Shown here in pieces: positions 3,101 to 49,371 of a stretch of 64,000 nucleotides of DNA (position 1 is the first letter of the stretch; the number at the start of each line of letters is the position of its first letter). Made by a program: the position numbers and the translations under genes. The notes below the pieces were generated by a model. That model was given only the letters and a program-made list of their open reading frames with translations, searched no databases and was not told where the DNA came from. The stretch lies in NCBI GenBank assembly GCA_949317995.1, contig OX439037.1, positions 18,526,324-18,590,323 on the forward strand. The letters run 5' to 3'. This stretch comes from Acholoe squamosa (lineage: Eukaryota; Annelida; Polychaeta; Phyllodocida; Polynoidae).

Positions 3101-3486
3101 GTATATCGGATGGTATATGCTCCATGGGAATTTTGAATTTCAATCCTTTAGATGGCTTACTCTCAGGAGTTTAGAAGTGGAGGTTAAACCAACCAAACCA
3201 AAGGATATGATATGAAGGATAGGAAAACTCAGAGGAGATTCTGCATTTCTATCATTTGGAGGCCCGGGCATATCATCCTAGAAAAAAATTCTAGATCTGG
3301 ATTGACATATCCTATAGTACTTTCAAATTCTAGAACTCAATTTTTGAGGTATAGCTCCAGGGAATATTGTAATTTCATCATTTCCTTGGTTTATGCTAAA
3401 GTGTAACAGACCTGGATCTGCGAGCCCCAGAGGTTGGTGTAAAGATATAGTTAGGTAATTTTCTTATATATAACAATGTTGTGTAC
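122..3486 (-). other. CPOX intron i/h
   Basis: 3.4 kb without recognisable genes. It contains a CATGATGCA-type repeat near 325-400, homopolymer runs (1118-1135, 1328-1352, 2337-2349) and otherwise unique-looking AT-rich DNA. The small open frames here are short, overlap in opposite directions and show no domain. Confidence 0.8.
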
Positions 3487-3598
3487 CTCTGAATTTGATG
3501 TGGAAGTAGTCATCACACCAGGCCTTGAAGCGCTTGTAGTACTCCGGGTTGTGTTTGTCACATGCTGCCTTCAACGTACTGTGGAAATGGGACGCGTC
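3487..3598 (-). CDS. CPOX: CPOX exon h
   Basis: A 112-bp exon (37 codons plus one base) reading from DASHFHSTLKAACDKH to KAWCDDYFHIKFR. The last part is the beginning of the family signature K-x-W-C-x-x-Y-x-x-I-x-H-R-G-E-R-R-G. The usual His before the Arg is Phe here (TTC), an unexpected change at the position equivalent to human His327. The split Gly codon continues correctly in exon i. The donor is GTACAC, which is weaker than the others. Confidence 0.97.
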
Positions 3599-4586
3599 CT
3601 GTAGGGAAATAAATTAATTTTACTGGTATCATATAATAGACCCTTGGCACATTGCCAATAACACACAGGTCTTTGCACTAACTTCATGAATGAATGGAAA
3701 GTCGAGGGTCATCATCAAGATATTCCCCACGACTCGAACATTAATTCCCCAAACAGTCTTTCGTTATTATCAGTAAACGTAATACTGTAATTAGTGTCAG
3801 GCATTGAAATTTGAGTAAATATGGTAGTCTTATCCTACATAAGTATTTAAGGAGCACCCCCTGCCCCACAAAAATATTTATAACTGTCCAAAATTTACGG
3901 ACCAAAACAAATCTAGGTCAGTCTATTGATAAAATTGAGAAGCCTCTCCCCTAGGCTAATGGCGTCAGAAATATATGATTTCTGGGACCTGCCAAAAAAG
4001 GTTATAACCCGTTGTTGAAATAGATTTCTGTCTTAGGACTCCGATAACAAAGTGCTTTCTGCAGGCCTGCCTTATTACAGGTATGCCCATTGGGAGGCTG
4101 ACAGAGCTGCAGACATTGTCTAGTATTTGCCATATTACAACATCTAGAATTACATCTCATTACGCAGACATCGGAAACGCGGCTGTCGTCTTCACTGTAA
4201 TGACCACATCTTTTTGTCGCTTAGCTAAAACACACCTTGCTATCTGTTCTAATTAGTTTTGTTTCAATGTTTAAAGAAATGAATGATGCTGCTGGAATGT
4301 AGTTTCTTCACCATAATTTTTCCTAAATGTAACTTAGATAAAGGGTTTAGTCGTTAACCAAACCATGCATCACACTCTACCGCATCCTACGACTGTATAT
4401 ATTACCACTGTGTTCTCTATTTTTGAGGAGATCATGCTATTAACCATTGAAAGGCTTTGATGTTTTACTGTGTTTAATTTGATTTAATTGTCCTCCTGAA
4501 GTAGATTGCGGACCTGATGGGCAACTCAAGATCACTGCATTCATGATTCATAAGTTGCATATAATTATGGCGTGGCTTAAAACCTT

Positions 4587-5325
4587 GCATATAAGGCATA
4601 GCTTCTTTACACCCTTGCTGCACATATAAGGCATAGCTTCTTTACACCCTTGCTGCACATATAAGGCATAGCTTCTATACACCCTTGCTGCACATATAAG
4701 GCATAGCTTCTTTACACCCTTGCTGCACATATAAGGCATAGCTTCTATACACCCTTGCTGCACATATAAGGCATAGCTTCTATACACCCTTGCTGCACAT
4801 ATAAGGCATAGCTTTTTTACACCCTTGCTGCACATATAAGGCATAGCTTCTATACACCCTTGCTGCACATATAAGGCATAGCTTCTTTACACCCTTGCTG
4901 CACATATAAGGCATAGCTTCTATACACCCTTGCTGCACATATAAGGCATAGCTTCTATACACCCTTGCTGCACATATAAGGCATAGCTTCTTTACACCCT
5001 TGCTGCACATATGAGGCATAGCTTCTATACACCCTTGCTGCACATATAAGGCATAGCTTCTATACACCCTTGCTGCACATATAAGGCATAGCTTTTTTAC
5101 ACCCTTGCTGCACATATAAGGCATAGCTTCTTTACACCCTTGCTGCACATATAAGGCATAGCTTCTATACACCCTTGCTGCACATATAAGGCATAGCTTC
5201 TATACACCCTTGCTGCACATATAAGGCATAGCTTCTTTACACCCTTGCTGCACATATAAGGCATATAGCTTCTTTACACCCTTGCTGCACATATAAGGCA
5301 TAGCTTCTTTACACCCTTGCTGCAC
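4587..5325. repeat. 35-bp minisatellite, about 21 units
   Basis: Unit CACATATAAGGCATAGCTTC + TTTACACCCTTGCTG. Units alternate irregularly between CTTTACAC, CTATACAC and TTTTACAC variants; one unit has a 4-bp insertion (about 5254). Because 35 is not a multiple of 3 and the minus strand lacks stops, it produces two long but meaningless Cys-rich open frames. Confidence 0.97.
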
Positions 5326-5387
5326 TCTGCTTCAAGTCAGGTGGCGCCTTATAGGCGAGGCTTTTAGACTAAGTAACAGTATGAAAA

Positions 5388-6957: not shown

Positions 6958-7710
6958 CTGAACCTATGGGTTTGATACACTCCCAAATGATCAGCATGAT
7001 GCTGAAATCAATGCTGAACTGTTGATGCACCAAGCAGCCAAATGAACATAAAGACTTGGCTTCCACTTGCTGCATTATGTCACCCTTAGAGGGCTAAAAC
7101 AAATTAATGGTAATTATGGTTGGTTGGAAACCCTCGATGACACCGAGGCATCGCATGGTCGTAATGAAAGCGTTTTTTATCGACAAATTCCTGTGTTTGC
7201 CTTTGATTTTTGTTTAGCAGAACAATAATTATGATTATGGTATTTACGGGCACGGACAGACATCAGGTTTGAATAATAAGCACCTCCACATCACACAAAA
7301 GGGGAAATTGTAAATTGTAATTCCTGTACACCTAATCCCACCCTTTTAGATTTTTTTGCTATAAATTAATTTCAGAATTTTTTAATGCATTTTTATACAC
7401 CACAGCCTAATTCAATCTATGGTCCTACATTTTTACTTCCTTCCTTATTTAACCGGTTTCTTACCTCATGTTTTCTTTTAAGTAAAGATAATATTCTTTT
7501 CAAGCATCAAGGCAACAGCTGAGTATATATGACGATGACATCGTAATTAAAGTATATTACTTAGAACTACAAGGGGCATCTCACAAACAATATAGTATGG
7601 GAATTCTATCAGAATCTGCTTAGACAGAAAACTACTTCACAGTTGTCCATATACCAACCTACCTGGTTATAATTCACAGTTTTATAAAGACCTTATATAT
7701 CTCTACTCAC

Positions 7711-7836
7711 CTCCTCATCCAGGTAGTAAGGTGTGAGGTCGGTGCCACCTCCAAACCACCATTGGGTCTTACCGGGGCTCTCCTCTACCTCAAAGTAACG
7801 GTAGTTAAAGTGGATGGTAGGCACGTTAGGGTTCCG
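7711..7836 (-). CDS. CPOX: CPOX exon g (catalytic core)
   Basis: A 126-bp exon, 42 codons in phase 0. It contains [19 protein letters not shown] and [17 protein letters not shown]. It keeps the residues equivalent to human His258, Arg262 and Asp282, of which the Arg and Asp are tied to substrate binding and decarboxylation in published work on the family. This is the most diagnostic exon of the window. Splice sites are canonical (GTGAGT donor, ttgtAG acceptor). Confidence 0.99.
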
Positions 7837-45716: not shown

Positions 45717-48210
45717 TGTCACTACATGTATACAACTAATAACTATGCATAGGCGACCGTTTAGTCCACTTGAATAACTTTCTAACTATTAATCTGACAA
45801 TCGTGGTGTTGGCTGGTGGACATAGATATATTTATACCATCATCATTCCAGACTATGCCTTTTATTCCTCACCATCCTTCCCACTTGGTACACAAAGACC
45901 AAAATCCATGCAGGTAGCCTGTATTCCTTGCACAAATAGACAGCACTTTGCCAATATATATCAAGCCATTTCCTACCTATTAATCTGGTTTTCTACCTAT
46001 AATTGGACGCCTGGGATTGGACACAATTTATTCTAGTCTGCATCTCCTTCCTTTTCTGACATTATTCTTGCTTATCACCAAATCAATTTTTAACAACAAA
46101 CCATGTCCACCGTCCTTTCTACTTCCGCTTCACAAATAGGGAAATACTTCATCTACAAATTAATCCTATAAGGACCGCATGATGCCTCCAGGTCCATGTT
46201 CCTTTGTCATCATGTGCTGGAGAGAAGACTTACGAGCACGGTATTGGTGCATCATGCTAACCCTTTGTCTCTCTGACATACATGGATCATTTGGTCTAAA
46301 TCTCAATCATGAGGAGGTTCCCTATATAAGCCTATATAAAAATATTGCAGGCCCCTCCCAACCGAGACCCCTGCCCCCCCCCCCCAATGAAAATTTGCTT
46401 CCTACGCCCCTGGTGTATCGTATAAACTTGATTTCTATTTGATATATTTGGTTGAAACGAATAACTTACGTAACTACAGGTATAATCTTTTGATAAATAA
46501 AACTTTTTCAAACTCAAAAACTCCAATCAAACTCTCTGGGCATGTATACATTCTGAAGGGCCAACATAATGCATGAATCCAGCTCTGGTGACCAATGCTC
46601 ATTATGCATTAATTACATCATGCGGCCATTAGAATGTTATACCAGCTCATTACTCCACATTCAATACTACTGCAATGTCTGCTTACTAGCGCCCTCCCTT
46701 TTTTTACCCCCTCCTACTACAATGTGGGACCTTTTTGATATTCTGATCTCGCTCATCTAAGAGGCTTTACCCACATTACTTAGCTCTAAAGAAGACAAGA
46801 TCGATATGACCGCCTCCAGCAAGCAGACATCTTTTGTCAATACAATGCTTTCAATAGCAATGTGGTTATAATATACATGTACAACGTTTGTAGGCTATAG
46901 TTATTCTGAGGCAAGGTGGAAAGAGGAATTTAAACTCTGGGTTTCAAATCTGTCGCAAAGATGTCACTCTCCGAAAACACTCTCGGTCCAGATTTCATCT
47001 ATATCAGTCACATACATTAGTACGTGTATAGGACTACAGAAATTGTCAGTGGTCCAAGAAAAGGATACTTTTTTTTTACCTAGTGAAGTCTATACCTTCG
47101 CAACAATGGCAAATAATGTCTATCTAGATAGCAAATGTTCTTTTTTTATCGGTACTACAATCTACACTATTTTCATTAGTACAGGATAATACTAAGGCCC
47201 AAGGAATATTATTCATGAGAGGGATAAGTGGATGAAATATGTACTTAAAATAAATTATTCTTGTTACTACGCTGTAGAACTTGTGATATTATATAGCACT
47301 ATAATCTCATAGATTATTGAGGTGTGTCCTCTATTAATAGTGCCTTGTCTAGTATTACTTTCCTCAAGTGCGATGCTTGATCCAGAGAAAACACTCCTAT
47401 TTCACAAGTTAACACGATATGGGTATGATGCCTTCAGGTTTATATTCCTTAATAGTCCCCAAAATAACGCTATAGCGTATCATTAACTAGCACTACATTG
47501 GTGTATCATGCTGACTCGCTGGAGGTATCAACCACACAGGATCGACAGCAGACATCAATGCAGGGTGGCAAGTAGACTTGTCAAGGCTGCATTCATTCAT
47601 CATGACGACCAAAAGGTAAATAGACAAGAGTTCCACTAATTAAGTAATTATGTAAAGGTAACCAAAAATCATTTTTGCTATGGGGTTCGAGACTATTTCA
47701 GTGACGTCAGAGTGGACAATGGCGTCATAGTGAAAGGGATGTGTTTCCTCACGCTCTTGTAAAGAATATTGTTCCCCACATGAAATAAAATGAACTAATG
47801 CATCACACAACTCTCAAAGACTAACAAGGTGGATATTTTCCTACTATGTGGGAGGAACGGTAGAATTTGCTTGTGCAACACCTTTAGAGACATCTCATAT
47901 TGATCGTTGAAACAAACGAAAACTAAAATTCTTTGCTGACTGAGAGTACCTTTCCAGGTTTTTTTTTTCTTCTTTTAGAATTACCTCGTTCAAAAGGGAT
48001 AAAATTGCCCCACCGCCCACACTAAGAATTAAGAAAAGTAGCATATTTGTAATCATGTTAAGGGAAATATGATACCATCATTCAGATAGGAAAGTTGGTC
48101 ACCATGGTGCATTTAAAACAGCACAGAGAAGTACGCGTTGTCATGGCCAAACACATGCTCATTTCTTTTTGATTTACGTCACCGTGGGCCTCTATGATCA
48201 CCTATACAAG

Positions 48211-48431
48211 TGTAGGGGACCAGAAATCCCCGTACCTGGTAGATTGACCCTGAGGGGCCAGTTACCTGGTAATCACTGCTCCCCTAGTATGTATCATACC
48301 GATCCAGGTGTAGTTGGAAGGTGGAAATATCAGGCAAGGGATCATGGTGTAATGGTTAGCATGCTGGAATGTCATGCCAGAGATCTGGGTTCAAGTCCTG
48401 GTGATCCTAGATATTTTCACCATCCTCTACA
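48211..48431 (+). repeat. 5' LTR of the TRIM-like element
   Basis: 221 bp, starting TGTAG and ending CTACA (inverted 5-bp ends as in LTRs). The first part (48213-48286) is a 74-nt block closed by the 7-bp stem TAGGGGA/TCCCCTA with internal repeats of ACCTGGTA. The second part is the tRNA-like gene. A TTTT run at 48414-48417 follows the tRNA by a few bases and would stop RNA polymerase III. Confidence 0.85.
48338..48409 (+). tRNA. tRNA-Asp(GTC)-like gene in the 5' LTR
   Basis: 72 nt fold as a cloverleaf: acceptor GGGATCA/TGATCCT (first pair G.U), D stem GTGT/GCAT, anticodon stem CTGGA/GCCAG with one mismatch at the loop end, a 7-nt loop ATGTCAT with U33 and anticodon GTC, and T stem CTGGG/CCTGG containing two wobble pairs. 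A box TGGTGTAATGG and B box GGTTCAAGTCC fit the RNA polymerase III promoter. The discriminator is A, not the G usual for tRNA-Asp, and the acceptor differs from ordinary animal tRNA-Asp, so a role in translation is doubtful. It is more likely a domesticated promoter, a primer, or both. Confidence 0.7.
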
Positions 48432-48432
48432 C

Positions 48433-48446
48433 TGGTAGGATCACCG
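48433..48446 (+). other. primer-binding site complementary to the LTR-encoded tRNA
   Basis: TGGTAGGATCACCG starts one base after the 5' LTR. Its complement is CGGTGATCCTA followed by CCA. That is the last 11 bases of the tRNA-like gene of the 3' LTR (10 for the 5' LTR copy) plus the CCA that is added after transcription and is not encoded in the LTR. The match is 14 of 14 with the 3' LTR copy, then diverges. Confidence 0.75.
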
Positions 48447-48649
48447 AGCCGGTCCTCGCGCGACTTAATAGGAAGATCGGGGGAACTCGGTGCCTGGGCC
48501 GGTATGATACAGATATGCTTCGACCCTGCCAGTACTATGTACTGGTAGGTCAACTGGGAATCAGGAGTGCCTCAACACTGCTTGATAAAGCCCAACCAAT
48601 CTGGTTGGGAGGAATGCTTGATGCTGGTTGGCCATGGTTGAAGCTGGTT

Positions 48650-48657
48650 GGGAGGAG
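48650..48657 (+). other. polypurine tract of the TRIM-like element
   Basis: GGGAGGAG lies directly against the TG of the 3' LTR, the normal position of the plus-strand primer of LTR retroelements. It is short but ends exactly at the LTR boundary. Confidence 0.7.
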
Positions 48658-48878
48658 TGTAGGGGACCAGATATCCCCGTACCTGGTAGATTGACCCTCA
48701 GGGGCCAGTTACCTGGTAATCACTGCTCCCCTAGTATGTATCATACCGATCCAGGTGTAGTTGGAAGGTGGAAATATCAGGCAAGGGATCATGGTGTTAT
48801 GGTTAGCATGCTGGAATGTCATGCCAGAGATCCGGGTTCAAGTCCCGGTGATCCTAGATATTTTCACCGTCCTCTACA
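48658..48878 (+). repeat. 3' LTR of the TRIM-like element
   Basis: 221 bp, same length as the 5' LTR with six substitutions and no indel. Three of the six lie in the tRNA-like gene: one in the D loop and two in the T stem. The two stem changes turn G-C pairs here into G.U pairs in the other copy, so pairing is kept. Confidence 0.85.
48785..48856 (+). tRNA. tRNA-Asp(GTC)-like gene in the 3' LTR
   Basis: The better preserved copy: the T stem CCGGG/CCCGG is fully Watson-Crick; the other stems and the GTC anticodon are as in the 5' copy. A TTTT terminator lies at 48861-48864. Same doubts about translation apply (A discriminator, atypical acceptor stem). Confidence 0.72.
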
Positions 48879-49371
48879 CAAGGAAGCCAAGATTTAAAGG
48901 GAAACAGTACCCTATATTCATGACATCGTATTTCGATAGCCTTTTTATCAAATAAAAACAATCTGGCATTGTTATTTAGATAGGTATCACTATAGAGGAG
49001 AGCAGCAGGTTTGTGTGGTGAATCTGATGACGTCACAATTGGGCTAAATACTACCATCTAATGCTTGCACAGCATTGTTCACCTACAATCAGATAATGTT
49101 TGTAGCATTTCACTGGCACAATTTGTCTATTTTCTTTGAGATATATTACAAGATAACCCTACCGAAGGTTCTGGTATAAGATCATGATGATGTATAATTC
49201 ATTATTCTTATTATAATACATTTTATCATGCCCTCCATGCATAAACAATGCTACAACTGATGCATTTAGCCCAACTGTAACATCATCAGCTGCACTGCAT
49301 TAACCTGCTGCCAAGGAGCTTAGACACAGTAGGAGGGGTCACTGAGAGTATAGTCTATGGGTAGACTGTGA

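Follow-up and report, generated by a model that had tools for sequence, protein, structure and literature searches.

The window analysed here is a stretch of 64,000 nucleotides from the polynoid annelid Acholoe squamosa (assembly GCA_949317995.1, contig OX439037.1, positions 18,526,324 to 18,590,323 of the forward strand). At positions 48207-48882 it holds a terminal-repeat retrotransposon in miniature (TRIM), a miniature long terminal repeat (LTR) retrotransposon of 668 bp as measured between its CAAG target duplications. Its two LTRs, of 221 bp each and bounded by TG...CA, are 97.3% identical to one another and each contains a transfer RNA (tRNA) gene (Table 1). The primer binding site (PBS) of the element is the complement of the 3′ end of one of these tRNAs followed by CCA, and similar self-matches recur, with different sequences, in four additional lineages of the same genome. 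The element is thus a candidate for a retrotransposon that encodes the primer of its own reverse transcription.

The element and its LTR tRNA

An original prediction, made from the sequence of the window alone, had described the 221-bp TG...CA repeats, the CAAG duplication, a polypurine tract abutting the 3′ LTR and a PBS one base past the 5′ LTR, all of which are present. It had also taken the PBS for the exact complement of the LTR tRNA end plus CCA; this is right for the 3′ LTR copy (14/14), while one change in the tRNA end of the 5′ LTR copy brings the fit there to 13/14. The CCA, as predicted, is not encoded in the LTR, where GATATTTT stands in its place. Elsewhere in the window there is no second fit to the PBS 14-mer at 12/14 or better.

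Table 1. Features of the element (window coordinates).
Feature	Position	Strand	Basis
Target site duplication CAAG, 5′ copy	48207..48210	+	sequence read
5′ LTR, 221 bp	48211..48431	+	repeat comparison
Imperfect inverted repeat around tRNA, left arm TGTAGTTGGAAGGTGGAAATATC; right arm GATATTTTCACCATCCTCTACA at LTR end	48309..48331	+	sequence read; antisense matches
5′ LTR tRNA gene, 3′ end CTGGTGATCCTA	48338..48409	+	Aragorn; Rfam RF00005, 52.4 bits
Box B-like GGTTCAAGTCC (presumed)	48388..48398	+	sequence read
TTTT, presumed RNA polymerase III (pol III) terminator, 3′ of 5′ LTR tRNA	48414..48417	+	sequence read
Single spacer base (C), LTR to PBS	48432..48432	+	sequence read
PBS TGGTAGGATCACCG, 14 nt	48433..48446	+	complement of tRNA end CGGTGATCCTA plus CCA
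Internal region, 226 bp	48432..48657	+	sequence read, repeat comparison
Polypurine tract GGGAGGAG, abuts 3′ LTR	48650..48657	+	sequence read
3′ LTR, 221 bp	48658..48878	+	repeat comparison
3′ LTR tRNA gene, 3′ end CCGGTGATCCTA, exact PBS fit	48785..48856	+	Aragorn; Rfam RF00005, 54.1 bits
TTTT 3′ of 3′ LTR tRNA	48861..48864	+	sequence read
Target site duplication CAAG, 3′ copy	48879..48882	+	sequence read

Both tRNA genes score above the RF00005 cut-off of 29 bits, each is followed four bases past its end by TTTT, and the 5′ copy includes a motif that we take to be a box B-like pol III promoter element. At E<=1, Rfam recovered no RNA family other than tRNA between 47800 and 49300, on which ground a ribozyme-bearing LTR element (retrozyme) was rejected. 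A host tRNA-Asp identity was rejected as well, since the 'Asp' call of Aragorn rests on the GTC triplet alone; the D-arm may be tRNA-Gln-like. The tRNA is enclosed by an imperfect 23-nt inverted repeat of the LTR flanks (48309-48331 / 48410-48431), so that the leader and trailer of a pre-tRNA could pair. A further inverted repeat of 19 nt, 89% complementary, joins the LTR at 48290-48308 (TGTATCATACCGATCCAGG) to the interior at 48493-48511 (CCTGGGCCGGTATGATACA); lying in or near parts that are common to lineage 2 (LTR 78-123, interior 52-82), it may be a conserved RNA structure.

The family of the window element

The host genome searched comprises 1.48 Gb in 63 contigs. Scoring 40 of 2257 first-look candidates for the window element gave 43 matches, 41 of them near full length with 93-100% identity (the window copy included) and two short. 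Of about 38 elements read at both ends (from a table of 45 rows, seven of which are second readings of one element), 29 have identical 4-bp target duplications, and five LTR pairs are 100% identical, which points to recent movement of this family, here called lineage 1.

The exact lineage-1 PBS 14-mer occurs at 126 places in the genome, against 5 for a reversed control, and every one of the 50 places examined (30 + 20) lies within the window family. No autonomous element and no free tRNA gene was met among these 50 of 126 places, no search dedicated to such a partner having been made. The 50 include nine near-identical segmental copies of one fragment (L191-L199), in a region with one truncated element on contig C6 (2.03-3.76 Mb), and two pairs (L172/L173 and L179/L180) that are each two PBS places in one locus. 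All seven acceptor pairs of the tRNA are kept in 108 of 132 lineage-1 copies. Beyond the host, the PBS 14-mer is carried by 113 IMG/VR stretches, none of them like the element; a conserved 19-mer occurs in no viral contig and in one bacterial contig, presumably by chance, and no phage record was found.

Further lineages with their own tRNA and PBS

Four additional lineages in the host genome have other tRNA ends, each with a PBS that matches the LTR tRNA of that lineage. The tRNA end and PBS are, respectively, CGGTGATCCTA and TGGTAGGATCACCG in lineage 1, CGGTGTCTCCA and TGGTGGAGACACCG in lineage 2, CGGTATCTCCA and TGGTGGAGATACCG in lineage 3, CGGTTTCTCCA and TGGTGGAGAAACCG in lineage 4, and CGGTTTCCCTA and TGGTAGGGAAACCG in lineage 5; with CCA added, the own tRNA end matches the PBS at 14/14 in all five (one tRNA and one PBS type each). 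The PBS types of lineages 3, 4 and 5 were predicted in writing ahead of the confirming reading or search.

Lineage 2 emerged from a genome search with RF00005, in which the best 63 of 97,417 candidates were scored. The 29 of these 63 that were read, from 24 stretches (eight matches in four paired stretches and 21 in 20 windows), all lie in lineage-2 LTRs, with the lineage-2 leader and tRNA start; some of the tRNA pairs are spaced 458-459 bases apart. Aragorn calls the tRNA Ala (TGC) in most copies, and the score reaches 68.8 bits in L232 and L233. An LTR module (85-92%) recurs in lineages 1 and 2, as do the ends of the interior. Three junctions that seemed to join a lineage-1 tRNA to a lineage-2 PBS were discarded: none is in loci before L232, and they are lineage-2 loci caught by a loose pattern.

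Lineage 3 came from a genome search by tRNA 3′-end pattern, as scattered copies ending CGGTATCTCCA. Its predicted PBS is exact in L262 and has one change in L266; it is absent at the expected site in L261, and the remaining windows read either are no 5′ LTRs or lack a PBS within reach. A genome search allowing either the own-tRNA or the host-Ala base in this PBS returned 11 places (L262 included), all 11 of own type and none of host type, with none for the control; upstream of the PBS in the nine stretches read stands a GTATCT-type tRNA end, in some with changes.

Two loose exploratory patterns were noisier. One, with G or C at PBS position 9, found 5 places (control 2), of which four are lineage-2 copies whose change is uncompensated and the fifth is a decayed copy of lineage 1. 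The other, excluding G at PBS position 6, found 33 places (control 13), of which 20 were fetched; their tRNA ends are CGGTTTCTCCA or a variant in 18 and CGGTTTCCCTA in two (L300, L301). From these, TGGTGGAGAAACCG and TGGTAGGGAAACCG were set down as the expected PBS types, with few mixed forms, before the next search, in place of a first lineage-4 prediction discussed below. That search found 1536 places with none for the control. Among the roughly 100 places listed of the 1536, only these two types occur, nine being of the second type (counted by eye) and none mixed; of 15 windows fetched out of those listed, 6/8 of lineage 4 and 5/7 of lineage 5 have an exact tRNA end, the other four having one mismatch.

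A box B form is kept in 90/122, 25/25 and 13/16 distinct copies of lineages 1, 2 and 3, and the TTTT 3′ of the tRNA in 119/132, 24/25 and 15/16 copies of the same lineages and in 15/15 windows of lineages 4-5.

Covariation of LTR tRNA and PBS

A junction was classified when the last seven bases of its tRNA equalled one of the five lineage ends. Each of the 87 classified 5′-LTR junctions is fitted best, among the five ends, by the one from its own lineage (49/49, 14/14, 7/7, 15/15 and 2/2 in lineages 1-5), the 15 junctions of lineage 4 and the two of lineage 5 carrying a PBS mismatch forced by the search pattern. The fit extends over at least 10 of 11 nt in 42/49, 12/14 and 6/7 junctions of lineages 1, 2 and 3.

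Changes on the two sides were compared in two sets, the earlier and less selected of which holds 60 junctions of lineages 1-3 (53 distinct). Here 93.4% of cells are paired, 6 of 10 tRNA-PBS pairs have changed on both sides, and 75 cells are double-changed, as compared with 24.4 in shuffles and 2-19 with the partner slid. The second set holds 43 junctions of all five lineages (38 distinct), made up of 12 lineage-1 rows found through whole-element similarity, 10 lineage-2 rows found through tRNA score, six of lineage 3 and 15 of lineages 4/5, the last two groups mostly found by PBS pattern. In this set 97.1% of cells are paired, again 6 of 10 pairs have changed on both sides, and 83 cells are double-changed against 27.4 (standard deviation 7.8) in shuffles and 0-13 with the partner slid. 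The number of double-changed cells and the covariation score were reached by 0 of 500 shuffles; the bare number of double-changed pairs is not above shuffles, which reached it in 341/500 and 57/500 in the two sets.

From lineage 1 to lineage 5, acceptor pair 6:67 reads C-G, T.G, T-A, A-T and A-T, with the PBS base tracking position 67 (one copy each). An acceptor stem kept through paired changes suggests a role beyond promoter use, which alone would not need it. Lineage-1 CpG variants of the tRNA end and the PBS are complementary as sets and unlinked copy by copy, and for want of that linkage were not counted as covariation. The covariation across copies that the original prediction had called for is seen over the five lineages: as judged from the aligned copies, LTR tRNA and PBS have changed together in the lineages compared.

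Could a host tRNA be the primer?

An ordinary host tRNA might prime instead, the LTR tRNA serving as promoter only and agreeing with the PBS by common descent from that host tRNA. Such a gene with the lineage-1 end was looked for in the genome. The end GTTCRANNCCNRGTGATCCTA not before G occurs at 17 places, and 17/17 are LTRs of the family and none a host tRNA. Followed by G[CGT], it occurs at 10 more: the five fetched are all LTRs, a sixth lies by its coordinates inside the L204 LTR, and four are unread, the search being blind to genes with GA next or another T-loop. No normal host tRNA with this end was thus found in 17/17 plus 6 of 10 further places; copies with a PBS for another tRNA, the other observation that would have told against the original prediction, take the form of the PBS types described above, each fitting its own LTR tRNA.

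The common-descent explanation draws support from lineages 2 and 3, in which the start and the acceptor stem of the tRNA are Ala-like and the PBS can still pair with the end of host tRNA-Ala at 12/14 and 13/14 positions, respectively. A 3′-end pattern search that gave 150 places, about 100 of them listed, moreover includes places with the lineage-2 end not before G beyond those read, and the lineage-4/5 ends lay outside the host tRNA searches. Against it, host tRNA-Ala genes (the tandem array on contig C15; L271) end CGGCATCTCCA, unlike the Ala-like lineages and differing from the ends that the PBS fits, and 0 of 11 Ala-related PBS places are of the host type. It would also need, for each of five lineages, a host tRNA with exactly the end of that LTR's tRNA, and is considered very unlikely. 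The array itself (C15:5088374-5123238, of which L271 is a part) consists of tandem tRNA-Ala genes, with two types, TGC and CGC, in L271.

Junction chimeras

Four loci, L172, L208 and L214 of lineage 1 and L277 of lineage 3, contain an LTR tRNA end followed by CCA, the complement of the spacer base and an antisense LTR end; the spacer-base complement is in each case the lineage's own (G or A). Genome-wide, the lineage-1 end plus CCA, with at most two mismatches, occurs at four places with none for the control: L172, L208 and L214, and an insertion of unrelated kind, L213. The chimeras look like junctions between primer and complementary DNA (cDNA), and are treated as consistent with priming by the LTR tRNA, not as proof of it. 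In L208 (C5:42726091-42727391), inverted tRNA/U5 ends are present on both sides, the left edge starting at TCCTACCAG, as if a folded-back cDNA still bearing primer remnants had been integrated.

The chimeras also bear on priming in cis, in which the tRNA of the 3′ LTR would be cut by ribonuclease (RNase) Z and given its CCA, the 3′ end of the genomic RNA itself, in place of a free tRNA, then acting as primer; in a variant, the tRNA end of the 5′ LTR would fold onto the PBS as a hairpin with some other role. L172, L208 and L277 comprise internal region, then LTR as far as the end of the tRNA, and after it CCA, the complement of the spacer and LTR in antisense. Such a layout would follow if the RNA in its full length, down to the end of its tRNA, had been joined to the first cDNA, and pairing in cis could involve the same 11 positions. 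A hairpin has no need of TGG at the PBS start, yet in all five lineages the common type of PBS starts with TGG, and a TTTT placed directly past the tRNA speaks for a short free transcript. RNase P, too, would be expected to part the tRNA from the genomic RNA during tRNA maturation. Priming in cis is rated a very unlikely explanation.

Proposed mechanism

With a probability of roughly 85%, the window element belongs to the Helenus type of TRIM and itself encodes the primer for its reverse transcription; transcription, CCA addition and priming are the conjectural parts of this reading. Boxes A and B in the LTR tRNA would recruit pol III, and transcripts stopping at the TTTT just past the tRNA would be end-trimmed and CCA-tailed into a tRNA. 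Read-through as far as the 3′ LTR TTTT would yield a genomic RNA with the tRNA region as its terminal repeat R. The CCA-tailed tRNA would then pair over 14 nt with the PBS one base past the 5′ LTR, a pairing that is seen as a sequence fit, and would be extended by the reverse transcriptase of an autonomous LTR element acting in trans.

Taken across lineages, the genome likely holds a large clade of miniature LTR elements whose LTRs include the gene for their primer tRNA, primer and site evolving as a lock-and-key pair; its size is gauged from the 1536 lineage-4/5 PBS places, the 126 exact lineage-1 sites and two more lineages. On the same reading, the pair can switch from one tRNA to another, which would make the element independent of host tRNAs, and the LTR tRNA gene would be promoter, primer source and terminal repeat at once. 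Coincidence, or an artefact of repeat structure, can be all but dismissed: an 11-nt fit at a fixed site has a chance of 2.4e-7 (4^-11) and recurs in five lineages with different sequences, and reversed-pattern controls gave 0 against 11, 0 against 1536 and 5 against 126 places (2 against 5 and 13 against 33 for the two loose patterns).

Several observations weigh against an LTR-encoded primer. The fit of 14 nt is shorter than the 18 nt usual in retroviruses, and is exact over 11 nt in just 18/49, 8/14 and 3/7 junctions of lineages 1, 2 and 3. Few evolutionary events, inherited by many copies, underlie the covariation counts. The 43-junction set omits 23 lineage-1, five lineage-2 (three of them uncompensated) and three lineage-3 junctions as well as the decayed L256, and lineages 3-5 were found partly through PBS patterns, so that their exact fits are no random sample. 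In the lineage-2 copies L257-L260 the PBS has changed and the tRNA of the own 5′ LTR has not, the search pattern having forced PBS position 9 off. The first lineage-4 PBS prediction failed literally, its exact complement being present in 0/20 windows, since one PBS position had been forced off by the very pattern used in the search; in 12 of the 20 the PBS departs from the complement at that position only, and the other eight have 2-4 mismatches. The chimeras extend into LTR sequence upstream of the tRNA, more than a primer of 72 nt could account for by itself, and a strand switch at the 11-nt homology of LTR tRNA and PBS can produce them too, since TGG in the PBS would template the CCA. Finally, section 3.6 of PMC10886601 reports no complementarity between LTR tRNA and PBS in the published Helenus families, from which its author concludes that the LTR tRNA has no part in the start of reverse transcription.

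Relation to known elements

Helenus elements (Kojima 2024, PMC10886601) are TRIMs with a tRNA-like sequence in the LTR, for which that paper names host tRNA primers (in bivalves Lys, His, Ile, Pro, Glu and Ser). Mobilisation by an autonomous Gypsy element is a further trait ascribed to the group. The window element resembles them as they are described there in being under 1000 bp, in having a tRNA-like sequence in both LTRs (Aragorn, Rfam; of the two promoter boxes, box B was counted) and a PBS and polypurine tract between the LTRs, and, as in animal Helenus, in its 4-bp target duplication (CAAG here; identical in 29 of the approximately 38 elements). It is short and apparently coding-free, the stop-to-stop frames that cross its 668 bp being at most 121 amino acids long, with no protein family search made on them. 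Unlike Helenus as reported there, its PBS fits and covaries with its own LTR tRNA, over five lineages.

Cassandra and Ajax, as summarized in PMC10886601, are TRIMs with 5S ribosomal RNA (rRNA) sequence in the LTR, the PBS of Ajax being for tRNA-Leu. Going by that summary, the likeness lies in a pol III gene within the LTR of a coding-free element, which is expected to drive transcription; the difference lies in a tRNA in place of 5S rRNA, of which Rfam shows none here. Tf1 and related self-priming LTR retrotransposons fold the 5′ end of their own messenger RNA onto the PBS with no tRNA gene; the present element would share with Tf1 its independence of a host tRNA primer and differ in that a tRNA gene is involved. 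An engineered tRNA-like primer reportedly complements a murine leukaemia virus vector whose PBS is impaired (title of Lund et al. 1997, J Virol, as cited in PMC3185771), so that the principle would work; that system is man-made, and its primer is not carried in a natural LTR.

No natural LTR element with a self-encoded tRNA primer appeared in the open-access titles and abstracts searched. The original prediction held a self-primed element to be new. This stands for the self-match, which is reported as absent in published Helenus, and falls for tRNA-bearing TRIMs, which were already published; what is new here is the self-match of LTR tRNA and PBS.

Other features of the window

On the minus strand, a minisatellite-like array at 4548-5331 translates as repeats such as LCLICAARVYRSYALYVQQGC. 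Minus-strand translations at 3-182, 3464-3613 and 7693-7836 are presumably exon-like parts of a host coproporphyrinogen oxidase gene.

Significance

LTR retrotransposons and retroviruses are taught as dependent on a host tRNA primer. If the present reading is true, a natural element with its own co-evolving primer would remove that host dependence and provide a natural case of primer switching, and it would explain why the tRNA kept in the LTR has an intact acceptor stem. All 29 matches read among the 63 best RF00005 matches being lineage-2 LTR copies, caution is also called for in tRNA annotation. The self-match contradicts what section 3.6 of PMC10886601 states of the same group of elements.

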